A DNA stretch of 64,000 bases. Origin: an uncultured Anaerolineae bacterium. GTDB lineage: Bacteria; Chloroflexota; Anaerolineae; Anaerolineales; Villigracilaceae. The notes beneath the pieces were generated by a model. It did no database searches. It saw only the letters and a list, made by a program, of their open reading frames with translations, and was not told where the DNA came from. The stretch is taken from positions 124,001-188,000 of the forward strand of contig CAIQVH010000019.1 in assembly GCA_903875215.1 (NCBI GenBank), written 5' to 3'. The number at the start of each line of letters is the position of its first letter. Position 1 is the stretch's first letter. Of this stretch, positions 23,925 to 42,745 are shown piece after piece. Position numbers and translations under genes: made by a program.

Positions 23925-23958
23925 ACAAGGCTGTCTCTTTTCCATGAGACAGCCTTGT
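23925..23958 (+). promoter_or_regulatory. 13-bp perfect hairpin between riboswitch and fmdE
   Basis: ACAAGGCTGTCTC (23925-23937) pairs perfectly with GAGACAGCCTTGT (23946-23958) across an eight-base loop. It is not followed by a T-run, so it is not a standard terminator. The fmdE ribosome site (AAAGGA, about 23982) lies 24 bases further on, outside the stem. Confidence 0.55.
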
Positions 23959-23994
23959 TGTATCGTACCTATCAATTTCCGAAAGGAAAATCGA

Positions 23995-24603
23995 ATGGAC
24001 CTTCAACCTTTGCTCGAAAAATCATCCTGCGACCATGCACATCTCTGCCCGCGCCAGATCCTGGGCGTGCGCATGGGCCTGGCGGGACTCGAAACCCTGG
24101 GCTTTGCTGCAGCGTCAGAGAAAAAACGGCTGCTGGTTATTGTGGAAACCGATGGCTGTTTTGTCGATGGACTGATTGCCGCCACCGGCTGCACTGTCGG
24201 GCACCGCACCTTGCGGGTCGAGGATTACGGCAAAACAGCCGCATCTTTCGTGGATACTGCCACCGGTCAGGCTGTTCGTCTGGCCCCGGCACCCGGCATT
24301 CGGGAAAAAGCTTTTATCTACACTCCCAACGAACCGCGCCATTATTTCGCGCAGATGCAGGCGTACCAGGTCATGCCCATGGCTGAGATGTTCACCTTCA
24401 GCCCGGTTACCTTGACTCAATCTCTCGCCGCCCTCCTTTCCCGGCCCGGAATACGAACCAATTGCGACCTTTGCGGCGAGGAAATCATGAATGAACGTGA
24501 AATCAGGCGCGATGGCATTACCCTTTGCCTGCCCTGCGCTCGCGGTGGTTACTGCCAATTCCAGGAACAAAACGTGCTTTTCTCCTATAGCCTTACCGAG
24601 TAA
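23995..24603 (+). CDS. FmdE family protein (formylmethanofuran dehydrogenase subunit E-like) with zinc ribbon
   Basis: A 202-residue protein starting at ATG 23995 (AAAGGAAAATCGA upstream). The FmdE domain shows HLCPRQILGVRMGLAGLETLGF, VETDGCFVDGLIAATGCTVGHRTLRVEDYGKTAA, with cysteines and histidine for metal binding. The C-terminal 50 residues form a treble-clef zinc ribbon, CDLCGEEIMNEREI...CLPCARGGYC. In bacteria FmdE-like proteins accompany molybdopterin oxidoreductases, with unproved roles in cofactor handling. The riboswitch upstream and the molybdoenzyme operon starting 7 kb away support a molybdenum or tungsten link. Confidence 0.85.
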   Translation: MDLQPLLEKSSCDHAHLCPRQILGVRMGLAGLETLGFAAASEKKRLLVIVETDGCFVDGLIAATGCTVGHRTLRVEDYGKTAASFVDTATGQAVRLAPAPGIREKAFIYTPNEPRHYFAQMQAYQVMPMAEMFTFSPVTLTQSLAALLSRPGIRTNCDLCGEEIMNEREIRRDGITLCLPCARGGYCQFQEQNVLFSYSLTE

Positions 24604-24662: not shown

Positions 24663-25097
24663 TCAACCGCGAGGCTGGACGATCGTTTTGCGCACAAGCA
24701 ACCTCCCGTTATCCTTCAATTCAACCGGCCAAACATCCAAGTCCTCCACAGCTGGTCCCGAAAGCAGCCTGCCTTCTTTGGAGTAGGTAGAACCATGACA
24801 GGGGCAGGAAAAACCGGAATCTTTCGTTTCAACCGTACAACCTAAGTGGGTACACACCAGGCTTATGGCAGAGAATCCGCTCTCAGTGTGGATCAGCACC
24901 GCCGGGATGTTTGGGTGAATCGTCCGCGAGCCGATCGGGTAATTCGCCGCAGGGCCCAGGTCAAATTCGATGGCTGGAGCCTGCTCCGACTGGTAGGCTA
25001 TAAAACGCAGCAGCCCGCCAAGTCCTACTGCTCCACTGGCTGTCAGCAGACTGGTAGCTGCAATTTTCAAGAAGTTGCGCCGGCTGATCGGGGTCAT
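24663..25097 (-). CDS. Rieske iron-sulfur protein of a cytochrome b complex
   Basis: A 144-residue protein. The N-terminus MTPISRRNFLKIAATSLLTASGAVGLGGLL is a Tat-type signal/anchor (RR-x-F-L-K). The [2Fe-2S] cluster ligands are C82/H84 in CTHLGCTVE and C98/H101 in CPCHGSTYS, with C87 and C100 as the disulfide pair. ATG 25097 lies one base after the stop of the multihaem cytochrome gene, so translation is coupled. It is the last gene of the redox operon. It should transfer electrons from quinol at the cytochrome b site to the periplasmic-side cytochrome c. Confidence 0.93.
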   Translation of the reverse strand: MTPISRRNFLKIAATSLLTASGAVGLGGLLRFIAYQSEQAPAIEFDLGPAANYPIGSRTIHPNIPAVLIHTESGFSAISLVCTHLGCTVETKDSGFSCPCHGSTYSKEGRLLSGPAVEDLDVWPVELKDNGRLLVRKTIVQPRG

Positions 25098-25098
25098 A

Positions 25099-26394
25099 TT
25101 ATCTTTTAACAGCGTGGCATTGATGGCAATAGGCAGAGGCTTGATTGGCACCGGTTTGGGTACATGCGCTTCCCTTGACCGGACGGAAGGTGAAAACCTG
25201 CTTGGTGACTTTGCCAATCATCTGGTAAGTGCCGTCCTTTAAGACGCGCGTATTCCAAAGCGGTTCGCCCTGTTCGGTAACCAGAATGACCTCGCCGGCT
25301 TTCAAGACAAGAATCGGGTTAAGGAACGCCTGCCGAAAGGCAATATCATCCAGCTCGCTCAATGTTTTGGTCAATGGCAGTTCGGTCGGTGTGCCATGAC
25401 AGGTTTTGCATTGGATATACTGGATTTCTTTCTTGTTACTGTGCAGATCTCCATCTCCCATCGTTTCAATGCGGGTGTGGCAATCCACGCAATCGAGGCT
25501 GTATTCGCAGCGGGTAAATTGTGCAATAGGCTGGTAATAATTGTGCAAGCGATCGGCTGGCTGATCGCTTCTTTCCACAAAAGTCATTGTCCGCAGATCA
25601 TAGTTGCCGCGATTGTGGCAGGTGTTGCATTGGGAATACGGAATGGCCGTAGAAAGAGTGTGAATTGGCGTTTGTTGGCTGTTCCATGCGCCAGCCGGGG
25701 CAAACGCGTGGCAAGACGCACAGCCGGTATAGCGCGCATACGTCTGTCCCTCGCGCGGGGCGGCATTCAAATGGCAGGCCAGGCAATTCTGGGAAAATTT
25801 TTGAATGGAAGGATTGTCCTCTGTTGACGTGTCAAACACTGCCAGGGCAGAAAGGCCGGTTTCCGTTTCAATCCGGTCATCCGCAACGGCGGCAATTGCC
25901 AGCCGGGCAGTCAGATCAGGTTGCGCGCCAAAAGTAAATCGGATTGTGGCGATTGCCCCGGCGTAGGTGGATTGCAGACTGGTTTGCACTCTCTGAATAT
26001 GATCCCGGCCAGCGGCAGCTGCCCCGCTGTGACATTTTTCTCCGCCGCACGATTGGCTAACCACCGTTAAATCAGATGGATTCGCACCCCCACGTATGCT
26101 GCTGTGGGCCATGTCTGCATCAAGAGCCAGCCGCTCCCCGCCGTGACAGGTGACGCATCCAAAAACCTGGACCGGGTGCGCAGGGCTGATTTCGGGCAAA
26201 TCGGCATGGCAGGTCAGGCAATATTCCGGCTGCCCGGTCAGGCTGGGGGTCAGCGAGAGAGGTTTCGGGGTGCGGGAATTCACCCACCCGGAAAACGCAA
26301 GGGAGAAGAGTAAAAGTCCCGCGGCAACGAAAAGTCGAAAGTCGAAGGTGTTGTCCTGAGCGTGTCGCAGGGCCGAAGGTTGGTTAGCGGGCAT
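25099..26394 (-). CDS. Nine-haem cytochrome c (membrane-anchored)
   Basis: A 431-residue protein with a single N-terminal helix (FRLFVAAGLLLFSLAFSGWVN) and eight CxxCH motifs (CLTCH, CVTCH, CLACH, CASCH, CNTCH, CVDCH, CKTCH, CHQCH) plus one CGGEKCH site of CX4CH type, so nine possible c-haems. It overlaps the end of the cytochrome b gene by 11 bases and is followed one base later by the Rieske gene. It probably replaces cytochrome c1 as electron acceptor in this complex, and may pass electrons to or from the molybdoenzyme module. I cannot assign it to a named family with certainty. Confidence 0.88.
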   Translation of the reverse strand: MPANQPSALRHAQDNTFDFRLFVAAGLLLFSLAFSGWVNSRTPKPLSLTPSLTGQPEYCLTCHADLPEISPAHPVQVFGCVTCHGGERLALDADMAHSSIRGGANPSDLTVVSQSCGGEKCHSGAAAAGRDHIQRVQTSLQSTYAGAIATIRFTFGAQPDLTARLAIAAVADDRIETETGLSALAVFDTSTEDNPSIQKFSQNCLACHLNAAPREGQTYARYTGCASCHAFAPAGAWNSQQTPIHTLSTAIPYSQCNTCHNRGNYDLRTMTFVERSDQPADRLHNYYQPIAQFTRCEYSLDCVDCHTRIETMGDGDLHSNKKEIQYIQCKTCHGTPTELPLTKTLSELDDIAFRQAFLNPILVLKAGEVILVTEQGEPLWNTRVLKDGTYQMIGKVTKQVFTFRPVKGSACTQTGANQASAYCHQCHAVKR

Positions 26395-27412
26395 TGGCGA
26401 GGAGGGTCAATACGATAACGGCCAGCGCGATTACACCCAGGGTGATTTGCGCCAGGCGGTTGGATTGGGGGCACCAGCGCCCAAGTTCGGAGGGGTCGGG
26501 TTGGGGAAAACCGTAAGGGATAATTGCCAAAAGCGCCAGAAAAATGAGCGGAACCAAAACGCCCCACAAAAATGGGTCGCCCCATTTGAGCATTTGCTGC
26601 ACCCACAGGAAGAACCACGGGGCGCTGACCTCGCCCGAAATGGCGGAAATTTCAGTAATCGGTGGGGCGATGGGGGCGGGGGCCAGGCTGGAGAGTAGGA
26701 TCAGCGCTGAAGCGGTAAAAATCATCGCCAGGGTTTCGCGGCGCACCAGCTCAAAGCGAGAGATACGGTCGGAAACGGTACGCAGGCCGGGGGGCGGAAC
26801 GGCAATGCCCCCGTCGCGGCGCACGCGGAAGGCATGCCAGATCATCAAAATCATGGCGATTAGAGTCAATCCAAAAATATGCCAGGCGTAAAAACGGATG
26901 AGGGTGGCCGGGCCGGGTTCAACGCTGCCGGTAAGTGCTGTGTAGAGTGTCGCGCCGACCAGCGGGATGGTTTTGACGAGATTGGTGCCCACCACCAGCG
27001 CCCACTGGATGCCCGTATCCCAACGGAGAATATAACCGGTGAAATCGAGCAGGATGGCGAGCAGGAAGAGCGCCAGCCCGAGCAGGTAGTTGAAGCGGCG
27101 CGGCGGGGTGTATGCTCCGGTGAAAACGATGCGAACAAGATGAACAGCCGAGACAACCAGCAAAAGCTGCGCCGACCAGTAGTGCAGGTTGCGTACCAAC
27201 CCGCCAAACGGGACGAGATAGGTAATGGTCTGTACCGATCGCGCTGCGTTTTCTGGAGTGGGAATGTAGTAAAACATTTCCAGCGCGCCGGTGAGGATGA
27301 GCATCAGCATCAGGAAGATGGCGGTGCCGCCCGCGCCCAGCGTGTAGCGCCAGCGAGATTGTTCGGCTGGAACGGTTGGCGGGTGCAGGTGGTGGAAAAA
27401 GTTGGGGCGCAT
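26384..27412 (-). CDS. Cytochrome b (b6-type with short C-terminal domain)
   Basis: A 342-residue quinone-reactive membrane protein. Haem ligands are H77 and H91 on one helix (13 residues between) and H178 and H193 on the other (14 between, the b6f-like spacing). GGLVRNLHYWSAQLLLVVSAVHLVR and DFTGYILRWDTGIQWA are typical. The Qo motif position reads APWFFLW (264-270) instead of PEWY, similar to the APWY seen in QcrC-like menaquinol complexes (family knowledge). It is fused from a cytochrome b6 domain and a reduced subunit-IV-like part. It is followed by the multihaem cytochrome and Rieske genes. Confidence 0.92.
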   Translation of the reverse strand: MRPNFFHHLHPPTVPAEQSRWRYTLGAGGTAIFLMLMLILTGALEMFYYIPTPENAARSVQTITYLVPFGGLVRNLHYWSAQLLLVVSAVHLVRIVFTGAYTPPRRFNYLLGLALFLLAILLDFTGYILRWDTGIQWALVVGTNLVKTIPLVGATLYTALTGSVEPGPATLIRFYAWHIFGLTLIAMILMIWHAFRVRRDGGIAVPPPGLRTVSDRISRFELVRRETLAMIFTASALILLSSLAPAPIAPPITEISAISGEVSAPWFFLWVQQMLKWGDPFLWGVLVPLIFLALLAIIPYGFPQPDPSELGRWCPQSNRLAQITLGVIALAVIVLTLLANAR

Positions 27413-27521
27413 GTTGGTAATTGGTGATTGGTGCTTGGGTGATTATAAAAGAAAAGACCGTTGACCGTAGACCGGGGATGGCAGTCTATGGTCAGCGGTC
27501 TATGGTCTACTGTCAAAAAGA
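27413..27521. repeat. Low-complexity repeat patch between nrfD-like and cytochrome b genes
   Basis: The 109 bases contain GGTAATTGGTGATTGGTG words (27416-27434) next to a set of interleaved direct and inverted GACCGTAGACC / GGTCTATGGTC words (27459-27512). Such repeats do not look like regulatory DNA and interrupt an otherwise tightly packed operon. Confidence 0.6.
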
Positions 27522-28673
27522 CTAATCCCCGGTTGCAGGGGCGTGCTCCTCGGCCTCGAACAGCGGCAGGTATTTGGCCGCCAGCCCAAAGGCCAGGATA
27601 CCCGCCGAGAAAATCGCCACGGAGATGGACATTTCTACCAGGCTGGGGGCGTAGCCGGGGTCGTTCAGGCGCGCGATGCCAAACCAGCTGACATTGAAAC
27701 GGTTCAGGATCATGCCCAGCAGCGTGATGACGGCTCCGGCCAGCAATCCGTTCGGGCTCTGGCGCACTTTTTTGATGGAGAACATTATGATCGGGGTGAT
27801 GCAGCCAATCAGGATTTCAGCCCAAAAGAGCAGGCTCATCTTGCCGCTGGTGAAAAGCAGGCCCAGTTCTCCAGTGAAGGCCAGGTCAGCCAGTTTCAGG
27901 AGCAGGTACGTCCCGGCAGTGTAGGGGATGGCGCGGGCCAGTTTTTCGAGCAGATGCGTTTCCAGGCCGCGCTGAAAGTAGCGCGCGCTGAGACTTGACT
28001 CAAGGATAATCATGCTCAGGCCGATGGAAAGCGCCGAGGTGAAAAACATGACCGGCAGGATCGGTGTCCACCAGAGCGGGTGGAGTTTGGTTGACTCGAT
28101 CAGCAGCAGCGAGCCAAGCGAGGATTGGTGCAGGGTGGAGAGCACCACGCCCAAAATCACAAACGGCATGATGAACTTGTGGATGAGATGGGCGGGTTTC
28201 TCCCATTTCAGGCCTTCAAAGACCACCGGCGCGAATTCAATCGCCAGCACGGTCAGGTACGACATGACGCAGATGCCGATTTCGAGCAGCACCGAGGTGT
28301 GGTTCCAGTACACCATCATGTACCAGATGCGCTCCGGGTGGCCGAGGTCAACCAGCAGGGCGATGGCGACCATCAGGTAGCCGAGGAAAGCTGTCAGCAC
28401 GGAGGGGCGCAGCAGGGGCTTGAATTCCTTGATTTGCAGGATGTAAACCAGCCCGGCCATGATAAATCCGCCGCTGCTGATGGCTACACCGGTGAACAGG
28501 TCGAAGCTGATCCAGAAACCCCAGCCATAAGTATTGTTCAGGTTGCTGATCGGGCCGATGCCGAGGGCAAAACGCACCATCGCGACGGTGAAGCCAATCG
28601 CCATCAGGGGGATGAGCACCCAGGTAATGGGAGGCAGCCGTAGGGCGGGATGCAGGTTGATGCGCAGTTTCAT
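27522..28673 (-). CDS. NrfD/PsrC family membrane subunit of a molybdopterin oxidoreductase
   Basis: A 383-residue polytopic protein with about ten hydrophobic helices. Family cues are WGFWISFDLFTGVAISSGGFIMAGLVYILQ, LVDLGHPERIWYMMVYWNHTSVLLEIGICVMSYLTVLAIEF, LHQSSLGSLLLI, LHPLWWTPILPVMFFTSALSIGLSMIILES and a late PSLVEMSISVAIF. NrfD/PsrC proteins exchange electrons with quinones and may couple this to proton movement. ATG 28673 overlaps the ferredoxin stop by four bases with GGAGG upstream, so the two are coupled. Confidence 0.92.
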   Translation of the reverse strand: MKLRINLHPALRLPPITWVLIPLMAIGFTVAMVRFALGIGPISNLNNTYGWGFWISFDLFTGVAISSGGFIMAGLVYILQIKEFKPLLRPSVLTAFLGYLMVAIALLVDLGHPERIWYMMVYWNHTSVLLEIGICVMSYLTVLAIEFAPVVFEGLKWEKPAHLIHKFIMPFVILGVVLSTLHQSSLGSLLLIESTKLHPLWWTPILPVMFFTSALSIGLSMIILESSLSARYFQRGLETHLLEKLARAIPYTAGTYLLLKLADLAFTGELGLLFTSGKMSLLFWAEILIGCITPIIMFSIKKVRQSPNGLLAGAVITLLGMILNRFNVSWFGIARLNDPGYAPSLVEMSISVAIFSAGILAFGLAAKYLPLFEAEEHAPATGD

Positions 28674-29506
28674 TTCGTCGCCTCCGTGCCATTCTCCCTC
28701 ACCCCTGACCCCTCTACCGGGGGGAGAGGGGGATTGCTCCCTTCCCCCCTCGGGGGAAGGGCCGGGGATGAGGGCGTCTTTTTCTTATTCATCTGATTGA
28801 TCCCAATCGCCACGCCGCTCAGAACCGTGCCCCAGGCCAGCGCAAACGGGATGGTGCCTTCCATGACCGCCTCGCTGACCGCGTTGACGGGCGTTTCGGG
28901 CATCTCGGGCAGCCCCAGTTCGGTGAATGGGACATGCGACAGGATGAGATAGGAGGTCCCGCCGTTTTCAAATTCGCCATAGACATGGTTGATGTAGCGG
29001 TCGGGGTGCGCGGCGATACGGGCGTGCGCCTCGGCAATCAGGTCGGCGCGTTCGCCAAAGACCAGCGCGTTGGTCGGGCAGGTGTGGACGCAGGCCGGGA
29101 CCTGTCCCACTTCCAGCCGCTGGGTGCACATCGTACACTTACGGATGAAAGCGCCTTCGATGATGCCTTTGTTCCAGTCGAAGTGCGGAACCTGGAAGGG
29201 GCAGGCGTTCATGCAGTAGCGGCAGCCGATGCACTTGCTGGCGTCGTAGACCACCGGGCCATCCTCGCGTTTGTGCCAGGCGCCTACCGGGCAGGCCGAT
29301 TCACAGTCCGGCTCGAGGCAGTGCATACAGTGATAAGGCATCGAGGCCCGTTTCAGGTCGGGATATTCGCCCATCACGCCCGCGCCCGAGAGCCAGATGT
29401 AGGATTCGCCCATTTCCACGTTGTTTTCGACCGAGCAGGCAATCATACAGGCGCGGCAGTCGATACAGCGGGTGGCGTCAAAGAGATATGCATGTTGTTT
29501 TGTCAT
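28670..29506 (-). CDS. Four-cluster [4Fe-4S] ferredoxin subunit (PsrB/HybA-like)
   Basis: A 278-residue electron-transfer subunit with four cysteine groups: CIDCRACMIAC, CMHCLEPDCESAC, CIGCRYCMNAC and CTMC...CVHTC. A C-terminal helix (FALAWGTVLSGVAIGI) may anchor it. The last 40 residues (KKKTPSSPALPPRGEGSNPPLPPVEGSGV...) are encoded by a GC-rich palindromic repeat and are unlike any relative I know. It lies three bases after the molybdoenzyme gene and overlaps the nrfD-like gene. Confidence 0.92.
   Translation of the reverse strand: MTKQHAYLFDATRCIDCRACMIACSVENNVEMGESYIWLSGAGVMGEYPDLKRASMPYHCMHCLEPDCESACPVGAWHKREDGPVVYDASKCIGCRYCMNACPFQVPHFDWNKGIIEGAFIRKCTMCTQRLEVGQVPACVHTCPTNALVFGERADLIAEAHARIAAHPDRYINHVYGEFENGGTSYLILSHVPFTELGLPEMPETPVNAVSEAVMEGTIPFALAWGTVLSGVAIGINQMNKKKTPSSPALPPRGEGSNPPLPPVEGSGVRENGTEATK
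28694..28774. repeat. GC-rich palindromic element, copy 1, in frame in the ferredoxin gene
   Basis: The element begins CCCTCACCCCTGACCCCTC on the plus strand and ends GCCGGGGATGAGGG, so its ends are complementary, with two inner hairpins (CCGGGGGG region and CCCTTCCCCCCTCGGGGGAAGGG). It supplies the C-terminal tail of the ferredoxin. Copies 2 and 3 are at about 32394-32470 and 59751-59799. Confidence 0.75.
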
Positions 29507-29508
29507 GG

Positions 29509-31674
29509 TTACGCCTTCCTGACCGTGACAAACGTCTGGCTGAGCGCCTGTCCGCCGCTGATTGGGTCGGTATAGCTGATGTGCAAATCCGAGTCGCTCG
29601 CGCCGAGGCCGTAAGCGGTGGTCAGACCCATCGACAGGTGGCCAAAGCCGGGGGTCATGTAAACACAGTCGGGGCGGATGGCCTGGGTCACTTCCAAATG
29701 CACCTTGATTTTGCCCACTTCGCTGGTCACTTCCACCAGGTCATCATCCACCAGGCCGTTTTCGGAGGCAGTTTTGGCGTTCATCCAGATGCGCGGTTCG
29801 TCATCATATTTTTTGAGCAGCAGGTTGTTGTGCGTGGCGAACTGCGTCTGGCGCGCGTCCTTGCCGGTTAGCAGGTAAAACTCGCCGGATTTGGGCGCGG
29901 GCGGCTCTTCCCAGGTGGGGATGGCTGCGAAACCGGCTTTTTCCAGCGTGCTGGATTTGATTTCGATCTTCCCGGAGGGCGTGTTCCATTTGTAGACTTC
30001 TGCCTCGCCCTCGGGCAGTTCCGCGTAGCCCTTCGCCCGGACTTCTTCCAGCGAAACCCCGGTGGGTGCCAGCTGCTGATTCAGGTAATCTTCCTCGTCC
30101 GCGTACTGGAAATAATCGCCCAGCCCGAGCCGCTCGCCGAGCTGCTTGAAAATCCACAGCGCCGATTTGGCCTGTCCCTGTGGCTCGATCACCGGCTGGC
30201 GGATAAAGGCCTTCGCGCCCATCGGCATCAACGGGTCGTAACGTTCGAGATAGGATGCTTCGGGCAGAACGACATCCGAGAACCAGGATGTGTCGTTCAT
30301 GATGACATCCACCGTGGCGATGAAGTCCATCTTGGCGAAGGCTTGCAGGGTCTTGCGCCGGTCGGGGATGGATTGCGCCGGGTTCTGGCGCGAAATAAAC
30401 CAGCCGTGCGCCTGGTAGGGGTCATCCTTCAGGATGTTGTCGCGCAATTCCTGGAACACGCCCAGTTTGAGCGGCACGAACGGATACTTCCACGGCACGC
30501 CGTCCAGCCGCAGCGCCGAAATGCGCGGATAGCCCGGCTGGGGCGGTTTGCCCAGCGCGCCGCTTTCCTCGCCGCCCGCCGGCAGGTGCGTCACACCCCA
30601 ATTGCCGACCAGCGCGTTCAAAATCGTGATGGCGCGCTCAGTCTGGAACGAGTTGACAAAGTTCGATGTGCGCCAGCCGTTGTGCGCCAGCGCATTGGGT
30701 GCGGCATCGCTGAATTCCTGCGCAATCCGCCGGATGGTTTCCGCCGGGATACCGGTTTTTTCGGCTGCCCATTCGGGAGTGTACTGGCCGATACTGGCCG
30801 CCAGCTCGTCAAAGCCGGTGGTGTACTGCGCCACGAACTCGGCGTTGTAGCGTTTCTCCGAAATAATCACATTGATAAAGGCCAGATGCAGCGCCAAATC
30901 CGTCCCCGGTCTAATCGGCAGCCATTCGGCGGCCTTCCCGGCGGTTTTGGTAAAGCGCGGGTCGATGTAGACCAGCTTCGCGCCCCGGTCAATCGCGTCA
31001 ATCAGCGTGCCCGTCTCCGAGTTGGAAATCGCCTCGGCCAGGTTGCGCCCGGTCAGGATGATGTATTTCACGCCCTCGTAACTGCGTCCCGGCTCTTCCA
31101 TGCCGTAGGTCATCAGGTTCGCCACAATCATGGCGTTGAAACACAGGCTGCGCTGCGTGCCGTAATTCGGCGAGCCGTAGGCCTGCAAAAGGTTCTCAAA
31201 CTGCACCTGCGACAAATTATGCGTGGACGAAAAGACCATCGCCTCGGGGCCATACTTTTTCTTGATTTCGAGCATGTTCCAGGCCACGATATCGAGCGCT
31301 TCTTCCCAACTGGCCTCGCGGAACTTGCCCTCGCCGCGCTTCCCAACCCGCACCAGCGGCGAAAGCACCCGGTCGGGGTCGTAGGTCGTCGCCAGGCCAG
31401 CCTGTCCGCGCGGGCAGAGTTTGCCATTGGAGTGCGGATGGTCGGGGTTGCCGTCCAGTTTGACGACCTTCCCGCCGCGCACCTTGGCCAGCACGCCGCA
31501 GCGCCAGACGCACATCTCGCACATCGTGGCGATTTCGCCGTCGCCCTGGGCATTGACCTGTCCAGTCGCCAGCGCCGCTTGCGCCACCGACGGAGGGACG
31601 AACTGCCCCACCGCCAGCGCCGCCGCTGCCGCGCCGCCCATCTTCAAAAAGTCACGTCTCGAAAGGGTCGTCAT
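29509..31674 (-). CDS. Molybdopterin oxidoreductase catalytic subunit (PsrA/PhsA-like)
   Basis: A 721-residue exported molybdo- or tungstoenzyme of the DMSO-reductase family. A Tat signal SRRDFLKMGGAAAAALAVG leads. The [4Fe-4S] cluster ligands are C52, C55, C59 and C87 (CEMCVWRC...LCPRG). A candidate metal-ligand cysteine is C178 in GTQRSLCFN, as in polysulfide and thiosulfate reductases. The C-terminal cofactor-binding domain is present (RIWMNAKTASENGLVDDDLVEVTS, VYMTPGFGH). Gene order catalytic-ferredoxin-NrfD matches Psr/Phs systems. Substrate (polysulfide, thiosulfate, tetrathionate) and direction are not determinable here. Confidence 0.9.
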   Translation of the reverse strand: MTTLSRRDFLKMGGAAAAALAVGQFVPPSVAQAALATGQVNAQGDGEIATMCEMCVWRCGVLAKVRGGKVVKLDGNPDHPHSNGKLCPRGQAGLATTYDPDRVLSPLVRVGKRGEGKFREASWEEALDIVAWNMLEIKKKYGPEAMVFSSTHNLSQVQFENLLQAYGSPNYGTQRSLCFNAMIVANLMTYGMEEPGRSYEGVKYIILTGRNLAEAISNSETGTLIDAIDRGAKLVYIDPRFTKTAGKAAEWLPIRPGTDLALHLAFINVIISEKRYNAEFVAQYTTGFDELAASIGQYTPEWAAEKTGIPAETIRRIAQEFSDAAPNALAHNGWRTSNFVNSFQTERAITILNALVGNWGVTHLPAGGEESGALGKPPQPGYPRISALRLDGVPWKYPFVPLKLGVFQELRDNILKDDPYQAHGWFISRQNPAQSIPDRRKTLQAFAKMDFIATVDVIMNDTSWFSDVVLPEASYLERYDPLMPMGAKAFIRQPVIEPQGQAKSALWIFKQLGERLGLGDYFQYADEEDYLNQQLAPTGVSLEEVRAKGYAELPEGEAEVYKWNTPSGKIEIKSSTLEKAGFAAIPTWEEPPAPKSGEFYLLTGKDARQTQFATHNNLLLKKYDDEPRIWMNAKTASENGLVDDDLVEVTSEVGKIKVHLEVTQAIRPDCVYMTPGFGHLSMGLTTAYGLGASDSDLHISYTDPISGGQALSQTFVTVRKA

Positions 31675-31677
31675 AGA

Positions 31678-32373
31678 TTAAGCCTTTTTGGATGAATCCG
31701 TTATCGGGGCTTGTTCGGCCTTTTCAAAGGATACCGTTACCCAGCCCATTCTCGTCCCCAGCACAACCGCCCCGACTACGACCACCGCGACGATCAGCGT
31801 CACCAACCCGATGGTTCCCCAGTTCACTGTCCGCACGCCGAGCACGTTCTCGTTGTAGCGCGCCACATAATCGACCGTGTACGCTGGTTTGGCAATCACG
31901 ACCGATTTATCCGCCGGGACACTGTTCGCCGGTTCCGGCATCATCGTCGGCTCGGGCGAGGGGCAGACCGCCGCCGGCAGGGCGGTCGGCTCCGCAGCCG
32001 CGCCGGTTCCCAACACATCGGTATAAACCTTTGCCCGAGCATCCAAATCCTTGGGGTGACACTGCTGGCAGGAGGCCTTCACATCCGCCATCGGGTTGAC
32101 CATGCCGGTATGCGCCGCAGCCTTATCGGTAGATTGGGTATTCCCGCCGTGGCAGATATAGCAGAAATCGCCAAAAGCGTGCGATTGGTGCCAGCCGGTG
32201 CCATCCGCATTAACGGATAACTGTCCCTGCACCTCGTGGCAATCCTTGCAGGACGAGGCCTGCGAACCGCACTGCGCGCTGGCCGGGGTGGCCGTTGCCA
32301 GCCAAAATCCGGCAACCAGCACCAGCAGCAGGCCGGTGGTGAGAAAAGCGATGAAAGTTTTTTTGTTGTGCAT
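31678..32373 (-). CDS. Triheme cytochrome c with C-terminal membrane anchor
   Basis: A 231-residue protein starting at ATG 32373 after GGAGG. It has a signal peptide (FIAFLTTGLLLVLVAGFWLATATPASAQ), three CxxCH sites (CKDCH, CYICH, CQQCH) in a NapC/cytochrome c7-like stretch with additional histidines, a proline-rich linker and a C-terminal helix (TIGLVTLIVAVVVVGAVVLGTRM). It precedes the molybdoenzyme by three bases, so it is probably its redox partner on the outer face of the membrane. Confidence 0.85.
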   Translation of the reverse strand: MHNKKTFIAFLTTGLLLVLVAGFWLATATPASAQCGSQASSCKDCHEVQGQLSVNADGTGWHQSHAFGDFCYICHGGNTQSTDKAAAHTGMVNPMADVKASCQQCHPKDLDARAKVYTDVLGTGAAAEPTALPAAVCPSPEPTMMPEPANSVPADKSVVIAKPAYTVDYVARYNENVLGVRTVNWGTIGLVTLIVAVVVVGAVVLGTRMGWVTVSFEKAEQAPITDSSKKA

Positions 32374-32389
32374 AGGTTCCTCCACGGTG

Positions 32390-32743
32390 TTATCCCTCGC
32401 TCTCCGCCCTCCCCCAAAGGGGGAGGGGACTAAGCCCATCTCCCGCCGGGAGAGGGGTTGGAGTGAGGGAAATCTCATTCAACAAATCCAGCGCCTGCAA
32501 AATGCGCGGGTCAGACAAAGCATAGGTAACGGAAACCCCGTGACGGGTGGATTGAACCAGTCCCCGCTCCCGTAAAATTTTCAGGTGGCGCGAAGTCATC
32601 GGCTGCGGAATCCCCAGTTCCAGCGTCAATTCATTCACGTTGTAGGGATGCTTTTCGAGCGTATGGATAATGTCAATTCGCTTGGGGTCAGCCAGGGCAA
32701 AACACAGGTCAGCTTCGTGCCGGGAATATGCGCTCAGGGTCAT
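32390..32743 (-). CDS. ArsR-family winged-helix regulator with repeat-derived tail
   Basis: A 117-residue regulator. The ArsR core is FALADPKRIDIIHTLEKHPYNVNELTLELGIPQPMTSRHLKILRERGLVQSTRHGVSVTYALSDPRILQALDLL. The CxC metal motif of arsenic sensors is absent; one cysteine (C14) lies near the N-terminus. The last 26 residues (SLTPTPLPAGDGLSPLPLWG...) are encoded by the GC-rich palindromic repeat. ATG 32743 follows GAGG. As first gene of the redox operon it probably senses redox or sulfur state and controls its own operon. Confidence 0.88.
   Translation of the reverse strand: MTLSAYSRHEADLCFALADPKRIDIIHTLEKHPYNVNELTLELGIPQPMTSRHLKILRERGLVQSTRHGVSVTYALSDPRILQALDLLNEISLTPTPLPAGDGLSPLPLWGRAESEG
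32394..32470. repeat. GC-rich palindromic element, copy 2, forming the ArsR C-terminus
   Basis: On the minus strand it reads CCCTCACTCCAACCCCTCTC then inner hairpins CCGGCGGGAG and CCCCCTTTGGGGG, ending in GCGGAGAGCGAGGG. It provides the last codons and the stop of the ArsR gene and extends to 16-20 bases before the cytochrome start. Confidence 0.75.
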
Positions 32744-32786
32744 CGTTCGCCTCGTTTATGCAGGAAAGTGCATGAATATCCTATCA

Positions 32787-32804
32787 TTGTGACGGTTATC
32801 ACAA
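32787..32804. promoter_or_regulatory. Perfect TTGTGA-N6-TCACAA palindrome (Rex or Crp/Fnr type site)
   Basis: TTGTGACGGTTATCACAA is fully symmetric in its half-sites. It lies 44 bases upstream of the ArsR start codon in the divergent region. Both Rex (TTGTGA-N6-TCACAA) and Crp/Fnr-family regulators recognise this pattern. Confidence 0.7.
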
Positions 32805-32872
32805 TAGTGCCTGGTGTCACCTTTTGCCATAGTTTTTCTTTATGCAATTCGATAAATATTTGCGATAGCTGA

Positions 32873-32890
32873 TTGTGATATTTGTCACTT
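32873..32890. promoter_or_regulatory. TTGTGA-N6-TCACTT site upstream of the rhodanese gene
   Basis: TTGTGATATTTGTCACTT, one mismatch group from the perfect palindrome at 32787. A TAAACT (32912-32917) downstream would place the centre of the site near -42 of a start at about 32924, the class II activator position. The right half continues as TTGTCACTTATATT (32882-32895), a 14-mer also found twice, inverted, before cydA. Confidence 0.65.
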
Positions 32891-32974
32891 ATATTCTATC
32901 ATCTTGTCACATAAACTTGTACTGACGTGTAAATCCATTGGGTTCTTCCCATTTTGAACAATCAGGAGAATAGT

Positions 32975-34696
32975 ATGAATAAGAAACTGAACCTGTCCTT
33001 GATCCTGCTGGTCATCTTCAGCATGATCCTGGCTGCCTGTGCTCCGGCAGTCACCCCCACTGAAGAAGTGGTCGTTGTGCCAACCGCTGTTCCTGCGACG
33101 GAGGTTCCCCCCACCGAAGTGCCCGCCCCCGATTTTGCTGTGCTTTATGCCCAGATGATCGGCTCGCTGCCCCAGGGGTACGCCGGGATGAAGCCCGCCG
33201 ATATGAACACGGCCCTGGCTGAAGCCACCCCGCCCTTCCTGCTGGATGTGCGCGATGCGGCTGAGCTGGAAAAAGATGGCTACATCAAAGGCGCAGTGAA
33301 TATCCCCGTTCGCGAAGCACTCAAGAACCTGGATAAACTCCCCGCTCCCACTGAAAAAATCTTCATCTACTGCGGTTCTGGCCAGCGCGGCGGGATGCTG
33401 ACGGGTGTCTTGCGCATTTTGGGCTACACCGAAGTCTACAATATGTACGGCGGTTTGACCGCCTGGAAGAAAGCCGGCCTGGCTGTTGAAACCGGCTCGA
33501 TGCCCGCTGCCGCGGCTGCCATCAGCACCCCCATCATCGCTGACGAGGCGCTCTTCAAGGCTCTCGACGAAAGCATGTCCGCCCTGCCCGATGGCTTCCT
33601 CGGCACCAAGGCCGATAAAGTCAAAGAAGCCCTGGCCAGCGCCACCCCGCCGACCGTTATCGACCTGCGCACTGCTGCTGAACGCGAATCGGGCGGCTAT
33701 ATCGCCGGTTCGGTCAACATTCCGGTGGAAGAACTCTTCACCAGCCTGGATAAACTGCCCGCTAAAGATGCCGCCATCGTGCTGTACTGCGGCTCCGGTC
33801 AGCGCGGCTCGCTTGCCATCGAAGGCCTGCGCCTGCAGGGCTACACCAATGTCCTGAATATGAGTGGCGGCTTCGGCGCCTGGAAGGCCGCTGGCTTTGC
33901 CTATGAAGGCAAAATTAACTGGACAAATGTCTGGACTGACTTCCTGACCAACCTGCCCGCTGACTATTACACCGTCAAGGCGGATGTTCTCAAAGCCCAG
34001 ATCGATACCGGCGCTGCGCCCTTCCTGCTGGATGTGCGCGAACCCGCCGAACTCGAATCGGCTGGCTACATCAAGGGCGCGGTCAATATCTCCGTCCGCA
34101 ATGTGCTCAAGAATCTGGATAAACTGCCCGCCCAGAACCAGCCCATCGTCATTTACTGCGGATCCGGTCACCGCGGGGCAATGGTCATGGCGTCCATGCG
34201 CATGCTGGGCTATACCGATGTCCGCAACCTGGGTGGCGGCCTGGGCGCGTGGTTAAAAGCCGAATTCCCCGTGGAAAAAGGCACCGCTCCGGCTGAACCT
34301 GTTGCTGGAACTGCCCCGGCTGTCGATTTCCTGCGCTTCAATGACCTCGATGCTTTCCTCTCGACTCTGCCCGATGGTTTCTACAGCATGAAAGCTGCTG
34401 ACGTGCAAACCGCTGTGACCTCGGCCACCCCGCCCGTCGTCTTCGACGTGCGCACCGCCGATGAGTTTGCGACCGGTTACATCAAGGGCTCCGTCAACCT
34501 CCCGATCAACGAGTTCATGAAAGACCTGACCAAGCTGCCTGCTGACAAGGCTGCGGCTGTCATCACCGTGTGCCAGTCTGGTCATCGCGGCGCGCTCGCC
34601 ATGATGGCCATGCGCATGATGGGTTACACCAACGTCACCAGCCTTTCCAAAGGGATGAACGGCTGGCTTGCCGAAAACCTTCCGGTAGAAAAGTAA
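32975..34696 (+). CDS. Lipoprotein with four tandem rhodanese domains
   Basis: A 573-residue exported sulfurtransferase. The signal peptide ends in a lipobox (SMILAACAP). Four homologous rhodanese domains follow, each with LLDVR-type and YIKGAVNIP-type strands. All four keep an active-site cysteine: C133 and C272 in YCGSGQRG, C395 in YCGSGHRG and C533 in VCQSGHRG. Intact loops in all four copies point to four working sulfane-sulfur carriers. The gene is divergent from the molybdoenzyme operon and presumably delivers or receives polysulfide sulfur outside the membrane. ATG 32975 follows CAGGAG. Confidence 0.93.
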   Translation: MNKKLNLSLILLVIFSMILAACAPAVTPTEEVVVVPTAVPATEVPPTEVPAPDFAVLYAQMIGSLPQGYAGMKPADMNTALAEATPPFLLDVRDAAELEKDGYIKGAVNIPVREALKNLDKLPAPTEKIFIYCGSGQRGGMLTGVLRILGYTEVYNMYGGLTAWKKAGLAVETGSMPAAAAAISTPIIADEALFKALDESMSALPDGFLGTKADKVKEALASATPPTVIDLRTAAERESGGYIAGSVNIPVEELFTSLDKLPAKDAAIVLYCGSGQRGSLAIEGLRLQGYTNVLNMSGGFGAWKAAGFAYEGKINWTNVWTDFLTNLPADYYTVKADVLKAQIDTGAAPFLLDVREPAELESAGYIKGAVNISVRNVLKNLDKLPAQNQPIVIYCGSGHRGAMVMASMRMLGYTDVRNLGGGLGAWLKAEFPVEKGTAPAEPVAGTAPAVDFLRFNDLDAFLSTLPDGFYSMKAADVQTAVTSATPPVVFDVRTADEFATGYIKGSVNLPINEFMKDLTKLPADKAAAVITVCQSGHRGALAMMAMRMMGYTNVTSLSKGMNGWLAENLPVEK

Positions 34697-38077: not shown

Positions 38078-41000
38078 TTACTTCCCAGCGGGGGACAAAG
38101 TCGCTTCAAGGATGCGATTCTGGTACACCCACAGGCGTTGATACAGACCGCCTTTTTGTATTAACTCGGCGTGCGCGCCGCGCTCCATGATTTGACCCTG
38201 ATCCATCACCAATATCTCATCCAGATTCTCCATCCCCACCAGCCGGTGCGTTATGAGCAGGCTGGTTTTATTTTTCATCAGCGCGAACAGGGTTTCCAGT
38301 ACCCGCGCTTCGGTCAGCGGGTCAAGATTGGCCGTGGGCTCATCCAAAATCAAAATAGGCGCATCCTTAATGAGCGCGCGCGCAATTGCCAGCCGCTGGC
38401 GTTCGCCGCCTGAAAGCCGCAATCCCTGTTCGCCGATCAGCGTGTCGTAGCCTTTGGGCAGCCCCAAAATAAAGTCGTGGATTTGCGCTGCCTGGGCCGC
38501 CGCTTCCACTTCCTCCCGCGTGACCCGGCGGCGGGCAAAACGCAGGTTTTCGTAGATGGATGTGTTGAAAAAATAGGTGTTTTGGGAGATGAGCGCGATT
38601 CTTTCGCGCACCTGGTCTGGATTCAGCGCTTTGAGAGATTCGCCGCTGAAAAATATCTGCCCCGACTGGTAATCCCAAAATCTCAGCAGGAGATTTGCCA
38701 GGGTGGATTTCCCGGCTCCGCTTGGCCCCACAATGGCGATGGATTTTCCCTGTTCAATGGTGAAGGTTATATCCTGCACAGCGGGGGCGGATTGGCCGGG
38801 GTAGGTGAAAGAGAGCTTGGAGAACTCAAGTCTGGAATTCCAGTTGTCATCCAATGAACGCGCGGGAGCGTCTTTCACCGCAGGTTGCGTATCCACCACC
38901 TCGAATAACCGGCTGGCGGCGGCGCGGGAGGCATTCCACAGTTGGGCCGCCAGCGGGAGCGGAATCACGGCCTCGAAGGCGGCCAGGGTGAGCAGACTGA
39001 GTGCTGCCAGCATCGGCCCGGCCAGGCGGCCAGATGTCACCTGCGGAATGGACAGGAACAGCACCGTCCACATGCCGAGCTGGGTGAGCAGCGTGGCAAG
39101 ACCAGCGTGGAAACCCGTCACAGCGGCCATGCGGCGCTGGGCATGGCCATAGTCAAGCCCGCTGGCTGCGACCTGGGCGAGGCGCGCCTCCGCGTGGCCG
39201 TAAGCCAGCAAATCTGCCAGGCCCTGGATGCCATCCACCAGTTGGGTGGATAAATCGGCGCGCAGGCTGACGGTTTGTTCGGCGGGTTTGGCGCTGAGCC
39301 GTTGCGCCAGGATGGGCAGGAGCAGCCCCAGGCTGAGAAAAAATACCAGGAAAGCCGGAGCCAGCGGCGGGTAGAAAGAAGCCAGGAAAAGGGCAGTAAA
39401 AATCCCGATGGTGGCGGCGGTCAAAGGCGGGGAAATAATCCGAACGTAGAAATTTTCCAGCGTTTCCACATCGCCGATGATGCGGGCCAGCAAATCCCCG
39501 GCGCGGAATTCCATCAGCCGGGCGGGGGCCAGCGGTTCGAGTTTTTCATAGAACCAGGTGCGCAGGCGCGCCAGCAAACGGAAGGTGACATCGTGCGAGG
39601 CGAGGCGCTCCAGGTAGCGAAAAACGCCGCGCGTGATGCCAAACAGGCGTGTGGCTACCACCGAGACGCCCAGGTCGGCAACGGAGGTCGAGATGGCGGC
39701 GGTGGAGATGAGCCAGGCGGAAGTGCCCATCAGCGCAATGCTGGAGCCGATGGTGATGGAACCAAGCAGTACGGATAGCGCCACGCGCTGCCAGTTCCCT
39801 TGCAGGAAGGAGAGCAGGCGGGGCAGAACCGCGAGGGGGGCTGCGGGGATTTCAGGTGAATGGTTGCCGGAGGAGGCCGGTTGCGGGGCAGGCGGGTGGG
39901 CTGGAGGCGTTGGGAGCTGCGGTTTTTGCGTCTCGTTTTGAGCGTACGTTTTCACCATGCCTGCGTACAGGCCGTTTTGGTGAAGCAGTTGGCTGTGGGT
40001 GCCCTGCTCGACGATGCGGCCTGCATCCAGGACGATGATCTGGTCAGACTGGAAAATGGTGTTGAGACGGTGGGCGATGGTGATGGAGGTGCGTCCCTGT
40101 ATGAGCGCGCGCGTGGATTCTTCCAGGAGCGCTTCGGTTTCAGGGTCGAGGCTGGAGGTGGGTTCGTCCAGGATCAGGATGGGGGCGTTCTTGAGGAAAG
40201 CCCGCGCCAGGGCGAGGCGCTGGGCCTGGCCGCTGGAGAGGCGGGCTCCGCCTTCGCCGATGACGGTTTCATATTTTTGCGGAAGCGCTTCGATGAAATC
40301 GTGCAGGTGCGCGGCCTGCGCGGCAGCGCTAATCTCGGATTGCACCGCGTCTGCCTTGCCGATGCGGATGTTGGTGGCGAGGGTGTCGTGGAAAAGGTAC
40401 TGGCGCTGCGGAATCCACGCGATGGCTTGTCGCAGGCTGCGGGGGGAAGGGTGAATCTCCCCGCTGGTGGGTTGGATAAACCCGAGCAGGAGTTGCGCCA
40501 GGGTGGATTTCCCCGCGCCGGTCTTCCCGACCAGGGCGAGGTGCTGACCCTGGGGTATTTTCAGGCTGATATTTTGTAGCGCCGGGGCGGTTTCACCGGG
40601 ATAGGTATATGAAACATTTTTGAAGTCAACTGAACTGATTTCACCAGTCCGTTCACCAGGCACAGACTCCTGCGCGGGCATATCCAAAATTTCATAAATC
40701 CGCCGGGCGGCGGTTGTGCCAGACATGCCAGCATGGAAGCGCGCGCCCAGGGCGCGCAGTGGCAGGTAAAATTCCGGGGCCAGCACCAGCAAAAAGAGCG
40801 CGGGCTGGTAATCCATGTGACCATAGAGCAGGCGAAAGCCGATTTCCACAGCGATGATGGCCGTGCTGAGGGTGGCGAGCAATTCAAGCGCCAGGGCAGA
40901 GAGAAAGGTGATGCGCAGCACTCCCAGCGTGGTATCGCGGAATTTTTCGCTGACCTGGGCGATGGTGCGCGCCTGCGCTTTGGACTGTCCGAAGAGTTTC

Positions 41001-41620
41001 AGGGTGGTCAGGCCTTGCAGGCTGTCGAGAAAATGGGCGCTGAGCAGCCGCAGGGTTTCATACTGGCGTTTGGTGACGATTTCTGCGCCCTTGCCAATCA
41101 GGATCATGAAGAAGGGAATCAGTGGCGCGGTGACGAGAAGAATAAAGCCTGAGAGCAGGTCAATGGGGAAAACGAAGACCAGGATGGAGATGGGAACGAG
41201 CGTGGTGATGACCAGTTGCGGCAGGTACTGGCTGAAGTACGCGTCGAGGGCTTCCACCCCTTCGATTGCGGCGGCGGTGAGTTCACCGGTGCGTTGTCCG
41301 CGCGCGTAGGCGGGGCCGAGTTTGAGTATGTGGGCAAAAAGGCGGTTGCGCAGATCGGTCTTGATTTTGATGGCGACCGCGCTGGCGGAAATTTCAGTCA
41401 GCCAGGCCAGGAGGGCGCGTCCGCTGATGGTGAGGAGAATCAGGCCGAGGGGAGACATCACCTGCGCGAGCGTTTGCTTCCCAAGGAAGATGGCGTTGAT
41501 CACGCTGCTAAAGAGCCAGGCCTGCCCAATGGTCAGCAAACCAGCTAGAAGTCCAGAGAGCACGGTCAGCAGGAGTGCGGGGCGGGTGTCGCGGGTGAGA
41601 GTCAGCAGTCTACGGTGCAT
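38078..41620 (-). CDS. cydDC: Fused CydDC thiol/haem ABC exporter
   Basis: A 1180-residue fusion of two half-transporters. The CydD half (1 to about 570) has six helices and an ATPase with Walker A VGKTGAGKST near 367, LSSGQAQRLALARAF and DEPTSSLDP. A proline-rich linker (about 575-600) joins the CydC half, whose ATPase has VGPSGAGKST near 964, LSGGERQRLAIARAL and DEPTANLDP. CydDC is needed for cytochrome bd assembly through thiol or haem export. It lies 86 bases after cydB, separated by a terminator hairpin. In most bacteria cydD and cydC are separate genes. Confidence 0.93.
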   Translation of the reverse strand: MHRRLLTLTRDTRPALLLTVLSGLLAGLLTIGQAWLFSSVINAIFLGKQTLAQVMSPLGLILLTISGRALLAWLTEISASAVAIKIKTDLRNRLFAHILKLGPAYARGQRTGELTAAAIEGVEALDAYFSQYLPQLVITTLVPISILVFVFPIDLLSGFILLVTAPLIPFFMILIGKGAEIVTKRQYETLRLLSAHFLDSLQGLTTLKLFGQSKAQARTIAQVSEKFRDTTLGVLRITFLSALALELLATLSTAIIAVEIGFRLLYGHMDYQPALFLLVLAPEFYLPLRALGARFHAGMSGTTAARRIYEILDMPAQESVPGERTGEISSVDFKNVSYTYPGETAPALQNISLKIPQGQHLALVGKTGAGKSTLAQLLLGFIQPTSGEIHPSPRSLRQAIAWIPQRQYLFHDTLATNIRIGKADAVQSEISAAAQAAHLHDFIEALPQKYETVIGEGGARLSSGQAQRLALARAFLKNAPILILDEPTSSLDPETEALLEESTRALIQGRTSITIAHRLNTIFQSDQIIVLDAGRIVEQGTHSQLLHQNGLYAGMVKTYAQNETQKPQLPTPPAHPPAPQPASSGNHSPEIPAAPLAVLPRLLSFLQGNWQRVALSVLLGSITIGSSIALMGTSAWLISTAAISTSVADLGVSVVATRLFGITRGVFRYLERLASHDVTFRLLARLRTWFYEKLEPLAPARLMEFRAGDLLARIIGDVETLENFYVRIISPPLTAATIGIFTALFLASFYPPLAPAFLVFFLSLGLLLPILAQRLSAKPAEQTVSLRADLSTQLVDGIQGLADLLAYGHAEARLAQVAASGLDYGHAQRRMAAVTGFHAGLATLLTQLGMWTVLFLSIPQVTSGRLAGPMLAALSLLTLAAFEAVIPLPLAAQLWNASRAAASRLFEVVDTQPAVKDAPARSLDDNWNSRLEFSKLSFTYPGQSAPAVQDITFTIEQGKSIAIVGPSGAGKSTLANLLLRFWDYQSGQIFFSGESLKALNPDQVRERIALISQNTYFFNTSIYENLRFARRRVTREEVEAAAQAAQIHDFILGLPKGYDTLIGEQGLRLSGGERQRLAIARALIKDAPILILDEPTANLDPLTEARVLETLFALMKNKTSLLITHRLVGMENLDEILVMDQGQIMERGAHAELIQKGGLYQRLWVYQNRILEATLSPAGK

Positions 41621-41645
41621 GAGTCAGCCTGGAAGTTGTACCGTT

Positions 41646-41689
41646 AAAAAAATTGGAAGGTTGAAGATGTTCTCGTCAACCTTCCAATT
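41646..41689 (-). terminator. Intrinsic terminator or attenuator between cydB and cydDC
   Basis: On the minus strand AATTGGAAGGTTGA (41689-41676) pairs with TCAACCTTCCAATT (41664-41651) over 14 bp, followed by a run of T (41652-41646). It would end most cydAB transcripts before cydDC. Confidence 0.88.
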
Positions 41690-41706
41690 ATACGGAGCAT
41701 TTTGGG

Positions 41707-42729
41707 TTAGTACACCAGTGTCTTTTTGTCGGTGCTGATGCGTTTGCGGAACGTGTAGTACGTCCAGCCCTGGTAAGCGAGGATGAGCGGGAGGAAGATC
41801 AGCGCAGAGATGGATGTTACGCCGAGTGCGTATTGCGAGGCCGAGGCGTTGTAGATGGTGAGCGAATAGGCAGGGTCGGTGGTGGAAAGCATCAGGTTGG
41901 GGAAGGTCATGGAGAAAAAGGTGACCTGCGTCAACACAATGTTGGCCGCAACCATGATGAAGGCCCAACCTTCCATCTTTTGGTTGATGAAATAACCGGC
42001 CACAAGCAAGGCCGCCACTGCCGCAATCGGGATAACGCCGGGGTCGATGATGCCGCGCGCCCAAAACCCGGAAGCATAGGTGAACACACCGAGGACGAGA
42101 TAAAGGACGCTGGCGCCGATCCACAGTTTTTTTGCGAAGAGATTGACGCGTTCGCGCAGCTCGCCTTCCAGCTTGAGGGCGAGGAAATTTGCGCCGTGCA
42201 GCAGGAAGACTGCCGTGGTGGTGAGACCGCCGAGCAAGCCATAGGGGTTGAGCAGGGTGAAGAGATTGCCGGTGAACATCATTTTTTCGTCAATCGGCAC
42301 GCCACGCGCCAGATTTGCGAAAACGGTGCCCAGCAGCAGTGCGGACATGAAGGAACCAATGGCGATCATCCAGTCGAAGCGCTTGCGCCAGGCCGGGGCG
42401 GCGTCTTTTGAGCGATATTCAAATGAAATCCCGCGCAATATCAGCCCAACCAGCAGCAGGAACATTGCCAGGTAGAAGCCGCTGAACATGGAGGCGTACC
42501 AGTGCGGGAAAGCCGCGAAAGTCGCGCCGCCAGCCGTCAGCAGCCAGACTTCGTTCCCATCCCAGACCGGGCCGATGGTGTTGATGATGGCGCGGCGTTC
42601 CTCGTCCTTTTTGCTCAGGAAGGGCAGGAGCATTCCCACGCCGAAATCGAAACCTTCAAGAAAGTAGAAGCCGATCCACAGGACGGCGATGAGAACAAAC
42701 CACAGGATTTGTAAAGATTCGTATGACAT
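41707..42729 (-). CDS. cydB: Cytochrome bd oxidase subunit II
   Basis: A 340-residue membrane protein starting at ATG 42729 (GCGGAG upstream). It opens LQILWFVLIAVLWIGFYFLEGFDFGVGMLLPFL with the family EGFDFGVG motif, then TIGPVWDGNEVWLLTAGGATFAAFP and RGISFEYR. These are hallmarks of CydB. It forms the quinol oxidase with CydA and lies 16 bases after its stop. It reduces oxygen at low tension. Confidence 0.96.
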   Translation of the reverse strand: MSYESLQILWFVLIAVLWIGFYFLEGFDFGVGMLLPFLSKKDEERRAIINTIGPVWDGNEVWLLTAGGATFAAFPHWYASMFSGFYLAMFLLLVGLILRGISFEYRSKDAAPAWRKRFDWMIAIGSFMSALLLGTVFANLARGVPIDEKMMFTGNLFTLLNPYGLLGGLTTTAVFLLHGANFLALKLEGELRERVNLFAKKLWIGASVLYLVLGVFTYASGFWARGIIDPGVIPIAAVAALLVAGYFINQKMEGWAFIMVAANIVLTQVTFFSMTFPNLMLSTTDPAYSLTIYNASASQYALGVTSISALIFLPLILAYQGWTYYTFRKRISTDKKTLVY

Positions 42730-42745
42730 GTTGTTTTCTCCGCGA

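Follow-up and report, generated by a model that had tools for sequence, protein, structure and literature searches.

A PhsA/PsrA-type molybdoenzyme operon of Anaerolineae carrying a nine-haem cytochrome c and an optional Rieske/cytochrome b module

The window analysed here is a stretch of 64,000 nucleotides from an uncultured Anaerolineae bacterium, located on contig C19 in a Chloroflexota genome of 3.77 Mb (hereafter, the window genome). It holds a minus-strand operon of eight genes, encoding an ArsR/SmtB-family regulator, a triheme cytochrome c, a molybdopterin catalytic subunit of the PhsA/PsrA type, a four-cluster ferredoxin, an NrfD-family membrane subunit, a cytochrome b, a nine-haem cytochrome c and a Rieske protein (Table 1). 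The initial annotation had listed these open reading frames in this order, and all of them are present, with Pfam and NCBIfam identities that agree. Its haem counts also held, since the large cytochrome has eight CXXCH sites and one CX4CH site (CGGEKCH, ~26029-26049) and the small one has three CXXCH sites. The interval it delimited contains the eight genes but overlooked a rhodanese gene, an FmdE gene and a molybdenum cofactor (Moco) riboswitch just outside. The genes of the operon abut or overlap, the sole exception being a gap of 109 bp between the NrfD and cytochrome b genes, in which a consensus scan, a weak test, revealed no convincing internal promoter or terminator. The likely starts of the triheme cytochrome (32373) and of the Rieske protein (25097) lie within longer open reading frames, which extend to 32478 and 25217, respectively.

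Table 1. Genes and other features at the operon and its borders (positions in the window).
Feature	Position	Strand	Remarks
ArsR/SmtB-family regulator	32390..32743	-	operon gene 1
Triheme c-type cytochrome (MHC3)	31678..32373	-	signal helix, three CXXCH, C-terminal transmembrane helix
PhsA/PsrA-type molybdopterin catalytic subunit	29509..31674	-	Tat signal, [4Fe-4S] motif, Mo-ligand Cys C178
Four-cluster ferredoxin subunit	28670..29506	-	16 Cys, HmcB/HybA type, C-terminal hydrophobic helix
NrfD-family quinone-reactive membrane subunit	27522..28673	-	HybB/HmcC type
Diheme cytochrome b, b6-like	26384..27412	-	b6 part and subunit-IV-like part fused (ExtP + ExtQ like), Qo motif APWF
Nine-haem c-type cytochrome (MHC9), 431 aa	25099..26394	-	N-terminal anchor, ExtM-like
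Rieske [2Fe-2S] protein, Tat-exported	24663..25097	-	CTHLGC...CPCHGS
Divergent four-domain rhodanese lipoprotein	32954..34696	+	catalytic Cys in each domain
ArsR-rhodanese divergent promoter region, 210 bp	32744..32953	.	two CRP/FNR-like palindromes
FmdE-family protein with zinc finger	23944..24603	+	convergent to Rieske gene
Moco/tungsten riboswitch RF01055	23769..23926	+	51.6 bits, directly upstream of FmdE gene

The catalytic subunit had been described as PsrA-like, and it indeed groups with PhsA and PsrA. PhsA is its best NCBIfam model, at 598 bits (the curated cut-off of 694 is not reached), the next family scores 263 bits and the TtrA model 96, and at 1e-100 the PDB gave a single match, Thermus PsrA. 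Residue C178, which aligns with the Mo-ligand cysteine of Thermus PsrA, and the CX2CX3C...C motif for the [4Fe-4S] cluster are invariant in 15 members. Arsenate, tetrathionate and formate were set aside as substrates on the hidden Markov model scores of this subunit, and the name ArsR is a family label that carries no arsenic implication. With the PsrABC and PhsABC systems the operon shares the catalytic clade, the Mo-ligand cysteine, Tat export, a four-cluster ferredoxin and an NrfD or b561-type anchor, but only the operon adds the triheme and nine-haem cytochromes, the Rieske protein and the cytochrome b, and by NCBIfam its ferredoxin and NrfD resemble HmcB/HybA and HmcC/HybB. The menaquinone reductase QrcABCD of sulfate reducers has a similar layout, with a membrane-anchored multihaem cytochrome c, a molybdopterin-family subunit, a four-cluster ferredoxin and an NrfD protein. 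However, Qrc comes without Rieske and cytochrome b genes, and the catalytic subunit of the operon, which keeps the Mo ligand, scores only 172 bits with QrcB (cut-off 440). A short palindromic repeat of the CCCCTCTACCGGGGGGAGAGGGG type, which appears to be dispersed in the manner of repetitive extragenic palindromic elements, occurs at 28709-28731 and 32435-32457, and the ferredoxin and ArsR seem to owe C-terminal extensions to it.

In the cytochrome b the four haem-ligand histidines (H77, H91, H178 and H193) are all kept, being invariant in 15 operon members, and the cluster-binding motif of the Rieske protein is intact. The Qo site, on the other hand, has APWF in place of a PEWY-type motif with its acidic residue. 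Because a proline, also invariant in the 15 members, replaces the glutamate, we refer to this part as bc-type and not as a canonical bc1 or b6f complex. Qo motifs devoid of glutamate occur in organisms that use menaquinone. The nine-haem cytochrome resembles the triheme protein in its N-terminal region and matched no PDB chain at E values up to 1 (phmmer). AlphaFold models of the nine-haem and triheme proteins reached a mean pLDDT of 64 and 61, and a Foldseek search with the former gave nothing below E 0.6. NhcABCD and Hmc also combine a multihaem cytochrome (nine or sixteen haems) with partners of the HmcB and HmcC kind, but they lack the molybdoenzyme and the Rieske/cytochrome b pair, and the nine-haem protein of the operon, as noted, has no phmmer match in the PDB. 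The bc module resembles part of the selenite/tellurite operon extHIJKLMNOPQS of Geobacter, in which a Rieske protein, a cytochrome b (ExtP/ExtQ), the multihaem ExtM and a rhodanese lipoprotein are found together. All NCBIfam scores with this system are below the cut-offs (ExtM 123/800, ExtP 215/290 and ExtQ 42/150 bits). Unlike the operon, Geobacter ext has ExtP and ExtQ as separate proteins and no molybdoenzyme, ferredoxin or NrfD, and it includes a porin (ExtI) and a selenoprotein, the selenocysteine cytochrome ExtKL. General scans recognised no ExtI or ExtKL gene beside the operon, although no search was aimed at them.

To examine the linkage free of any assumption about PhsA, we searched 101 related genomes with the cytochrome b and read the flanks of the best matches. 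Close homologues without a C-terminal fusion lay inside the operon in 16 of 16 cases with enough upstream sequence, while the 15 homologues that carry a fused C-terminal domain with a single CXXCH were all outside it (Fisher 3e-9, uncorrected for kinship). These fused paralogues (L050, L052, L055-L060, L064-L068, L070 and L071) are often beside a Rieske gene and never beside PhsA, and on a tree they nest among the operon type. A PhsA-profile scan of named genomes, whose linkage counts are therefore conditional on PhsA, yielded 80 loci. The named relatives are all Chloroflexota, nearly all of them metagenome-assembled genomes of Anaerolineae/Anaerolineales. At least 5.5 kb of downstream sequence was available at 48 of the 80 loci, and 43 of these have, within 11 kb, one or more of the genes for cytochrome b, the nine-haem c and Rieske; all three are present in 32, and a codirectional cytochrome b in 31. 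This gene-neighbourhood check, suggested with the initial annotation, shows the union to be real, not accidental, and conserved over many genera. The two observations that were to make it accidental, a catalytic subunit in a non-sulfur clade and bc genes apart from it in all relatives, were not made, as the subunit belongs with PhsA/PsrA and the linkage persists. At E 1e-40 the nine-haem cytochrome was found in 7 of 301 evenly drawn Chloroflexota genomes; therefore, the system is widespread but restricted. In plasmid records we encountered only a distant enterobacterial phsA (33% identity), and no relative of the nine-haem protein.

The initial annotation knew of no such eight-gene union, and we likewise found no description of it as one unit in the open-licence literature. 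A survey lists PhsABC of Chloroflexota as thiosulfate reductase and leaves multihaem or Rieske/cytochrome b wiring unmentioned (PMC9040765), and for cable bacteria a model has been put forward in which Phs/PsrABC and a partial complex III act through the quinone pool (PMC13047784). The union combines known parts, namely PsrABC/PhsABC, Ext, a Qrc-like layout and bc-type complexes.

Not all parts of the union are equally constant. On a PhsA tree of 81 rows, built from draft genomes, the presence of cytochrome b changes 10 times, the type of membrane anchor 10 times and the nine-haem cytochrome 3 times. The anchor can be one of two divergent kinds of NrfD, a b561-type cytochrome (PF01292) or a PsrC-like NrfD, after which several loci have class-I dihaem cytochromes c ahead of the bc module. 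At L111, L116 and in genome G034 the NrfD gene is followed directly by that of the nine-haem cytochrome, with neither cytochrome b nor Rieske; G034 (L166 and L167, PhsA and NrfD ~90% identical) retains rhodanese, triheme c, PhsA, NrfD, nine-haem c and FmdE. In L087, L115 and L127 the nine-haem c and Rieske are kept and cytochrome b is absent, and in other loci the bc part was lost or stands in a separate convergent unit (L097, L103 and L149). Conversely, G089 (L072) has a related cluster of nine-haem-like c, Rieske and split cytochrome b, with PhsA absent from the stretch read; the cytochrome b matches of G076 are of the same split kind. Three modules are thus combined: PhsABC with the triheme c, the nine-haem c, and Rieske/cytochrome b, and the nine-haem cytochrome is the piece most faithful to PhsA. 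The link first proposed between a sulfur enzyme and a bc-like complex therefore stands on its sulfur side, where YeeE/YedE and rhodanese genes join in, and does not stand as a fixed bc complex, since Rieske and cytochrome b are optional. Because these two are repeatedly absent while PhsA and the nine-haem c stay, the latter, and not a fixed bc complex, would be the bridge. At L077 and L078 a second cluster of NrfD, ferredoxin and a seven-haem cytochrome lies past the rhodanese gene, possibly a further quinone-reactive complex.

In 69 of the 80 loci, the triheme c and PhsA genes are separated by a split YeeE/YedE pair (PF04143, sulfur transport). This pair is missing from the subclade of the window (PhsA identity of 85% or more), most members of which have the divergent four-domain rhodanese beside the operon instead. 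YeeE/YedE have been characterised as thiosulfate uptake proteins, as cited in PMC13047784. Since the enzyme belongs to the PhsA clade and is accompanied by YeeE/YedE, or by rhodanese in the subclade of the window, the substrate is very likely a sulfur compound. Thiosulfate, polysulfide and sulfide are indistinguishable by sequence, as is also stated in PMC13047784.

From these data we tentatively propose, at a little below an even chance, that the eight genes specify a short respiratory chain acting on a sulfur compound, in which two quinone-reactive complexes share a multihaem wire and which runs in the oxidative direction. The exported PhsA/PsrA-type enzyme would exchange electrons with menaquinone through the four-cluster ferredoxin and NrfD, and cytochrome b and Rieske would form a b6f/bc-type unit in which menaquinol is oxidised. 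The nine-haem cytochrome would trade electrons with both complexes, the membrane-anchored triheme c near PhsA offering a second contact, and the four-domain rhodanese, or YeeE/YedE in most relatives, would handle or move sulfane sulfur. Electrons would thus pass from the sulfur compound to PhsA, ferredoxin, NrfD, menaquinone, cytochrome b/Rieske and the nine-haem c, and from there to an acceptor such as an oxidase or NrfA. We have moderate confidence in the nine-haem c as a shared hub that also contacts the PhsA/triheme side, a role suggested by its persistence beside PhsA at loci without the bc part. The oxidative direction is a weak preference, barely above its opposite within this proposal; it is favoured because each step would be downhill, because class-I dihaem cytochromes occur in relatives, and because the window genome has two haem-copper oxidases, a cytochrome bd and NrfA, while dsrA was looked for there and not found. 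An intact Rieske/cytochrome b unit is spontaneous only from menaquinol towards a high-potential branch, and reduction of thiosulfate or polysulfide via a Rieske centre is thermodynamically uphill. Several points weigh against the proposal. Characterised Phs and Psr enzymes are reductases, and G047 (92% complete) has the full operon, yet searches of it gave neither a haem-copper nor a bd oxidase, nor a convincing NrfA. Model confidence is low for both cytochromes, and single-gene state changes in metagenome-assembled or draft contigs can be assembly artefacts. As for Dsr-based sulfur oxidation or sulfate reduction in the window genome, it was rejected on the absence of a dsrA match.

The same genes could also be wired in reverse, with menaquinol feeding cytochrome b/Rieske, then the nine-haem and triheme cytochromes and finally PhsA, which would reduce a high-potential sulfur compound (tetrathionate-like) or another oxyanion. 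This would render a periplasmic reductase electrogenic, NrfD being a second, direct route. Campylobacter jejuni offers a precedent, as its Nap and Tor are fed solely via QcrABC, and tetrathionate is named as another possible acceptor (PMC6195509). There too a Rieske/cytochrome b complex supplies periplasmic molybdoenzymes, although the operons are separate, the molybdoenzymes are others and the c subunit is dihaem instead of nine-haem. The persistence of the nine-haem c with PhsA after bc loss agrees with a reductive chain, as do the full operons of G016, G073 and G047, where no haem-copper oxidase was found. Nevertheless, thiosulfate and polysulfide, the known substrates of the clade, are far below the Rieske potential and the catalytic subunit is not TtrA-like (96 bits, against 598 for PhsA). 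We consider this wiring rather unlikely. More improbable by a small step is the supercomplex or electron-bifurcating branch suggested at first, so far unsupported, in which the nine-haem c would physically join PhsABC to Rieske/cytochrome b. Sulfur chemistry and menaquinol oxidation would then exchange electrons directly, and electrons might bifurcate or confurcate around the quinone pool, for example to power sulfur disproportionation or uphill sulfur reduction.

Alternatively, the locus could be an ordinary neighbourhood in which a Phs-type thiosulfate or polysulfide reductase and a menaquinol:cytochrome c oxidoreductase are co-regulated and work independently via the quinone pool. The loss of the bc part or its displacement to convergent units, the similar cluster that stands alone in G089 and the 15 fused bc paralogues, which also stand alone, are all compatible with it. 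A pure bc subunit, however, would not be expected beside PhsABC in loci devoid of cytochrome b and Rieske, as the nine-haem c is in L111, L116 and G034, and the unfused cytochrome b was linked to PhsA wherever there was room upstream (16 of 16); we judge mere co-regulation to be rather unlikely, on a par with the reductive wiring. A reductase system for selenium, tellurium or another metalloid oxyanion, in which the substrate of the Phs-like enzyme would be a selenium oxyanion, is very improbable. The nine-haem c and cytochrome b do match ExtM, ExtP and ExtQ, and genes for a rhodanese lipoprotein and a Rieske protein likewise occur in Geobacter ext, but every one of these matches is under its curated cut-off, ExtI and ExtKL are not among the genes seen (with no dedicated search) and YeeE/YedE are a family of sulfur (thiosulfate) transporters.

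Sediments, groundwater and sludge harbour abundant Anaerolineae, about whose respiration little is known. If the proposed wiring is true, many thiosulfate reductases annotated in this class have been misread, and the natural variants, with or without cytochrome b and with NrfD, b561 or PsrC anchors, make the coupling of a sulfur molybdoenzyme to a bc-type complex directly testable. It would also give a lead on the function of Geobacter ExtM-Q, known mainly by selenite and tellurite phenotypes.

Expression of the operon would be controlled by ArsR together with a factor of the CRP/FNR type. One palindrome of the divergent promoter region (32788-32803) is an exact TGTGA-N6-TCACA, and the other (32874-32889), with one mismatch, is conserved in five relatives. 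They are two of the three CRP-like palindromes with up to one mismatch in the window, where 1.2 would be expected in all. ArsR has a single cysteine, C14, which 64 of 65 orthologues share; persulfide sensors of the two-cysteine kind differ from it in this. At the other end of the operon, the FmdE gene, which is the final operon gene in many relatives, may serve in molybdenum supply or cofactor insertion, as suggested by that position and by the riboswitch upstream of it.

Other respiratory genes are found nearby and elsewhere in the window genome. At 38078-44140 (minus strand), a few kb from the rhodanese and LysR genes, the cydAB genes of the cytochrome bd oxidase adjoin a gene for an ABC protein of 1180 aa with two ATPase domains, possibly a fused CydDC. 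Two further Rieske/cytochrome b clusters occur in G000:C8:1-20000 (L073) and G000:C19:191000-210999 (L074), one of them adjoining a haem-copper oxidase gene, which brings the bc-type units of the window genome to three.

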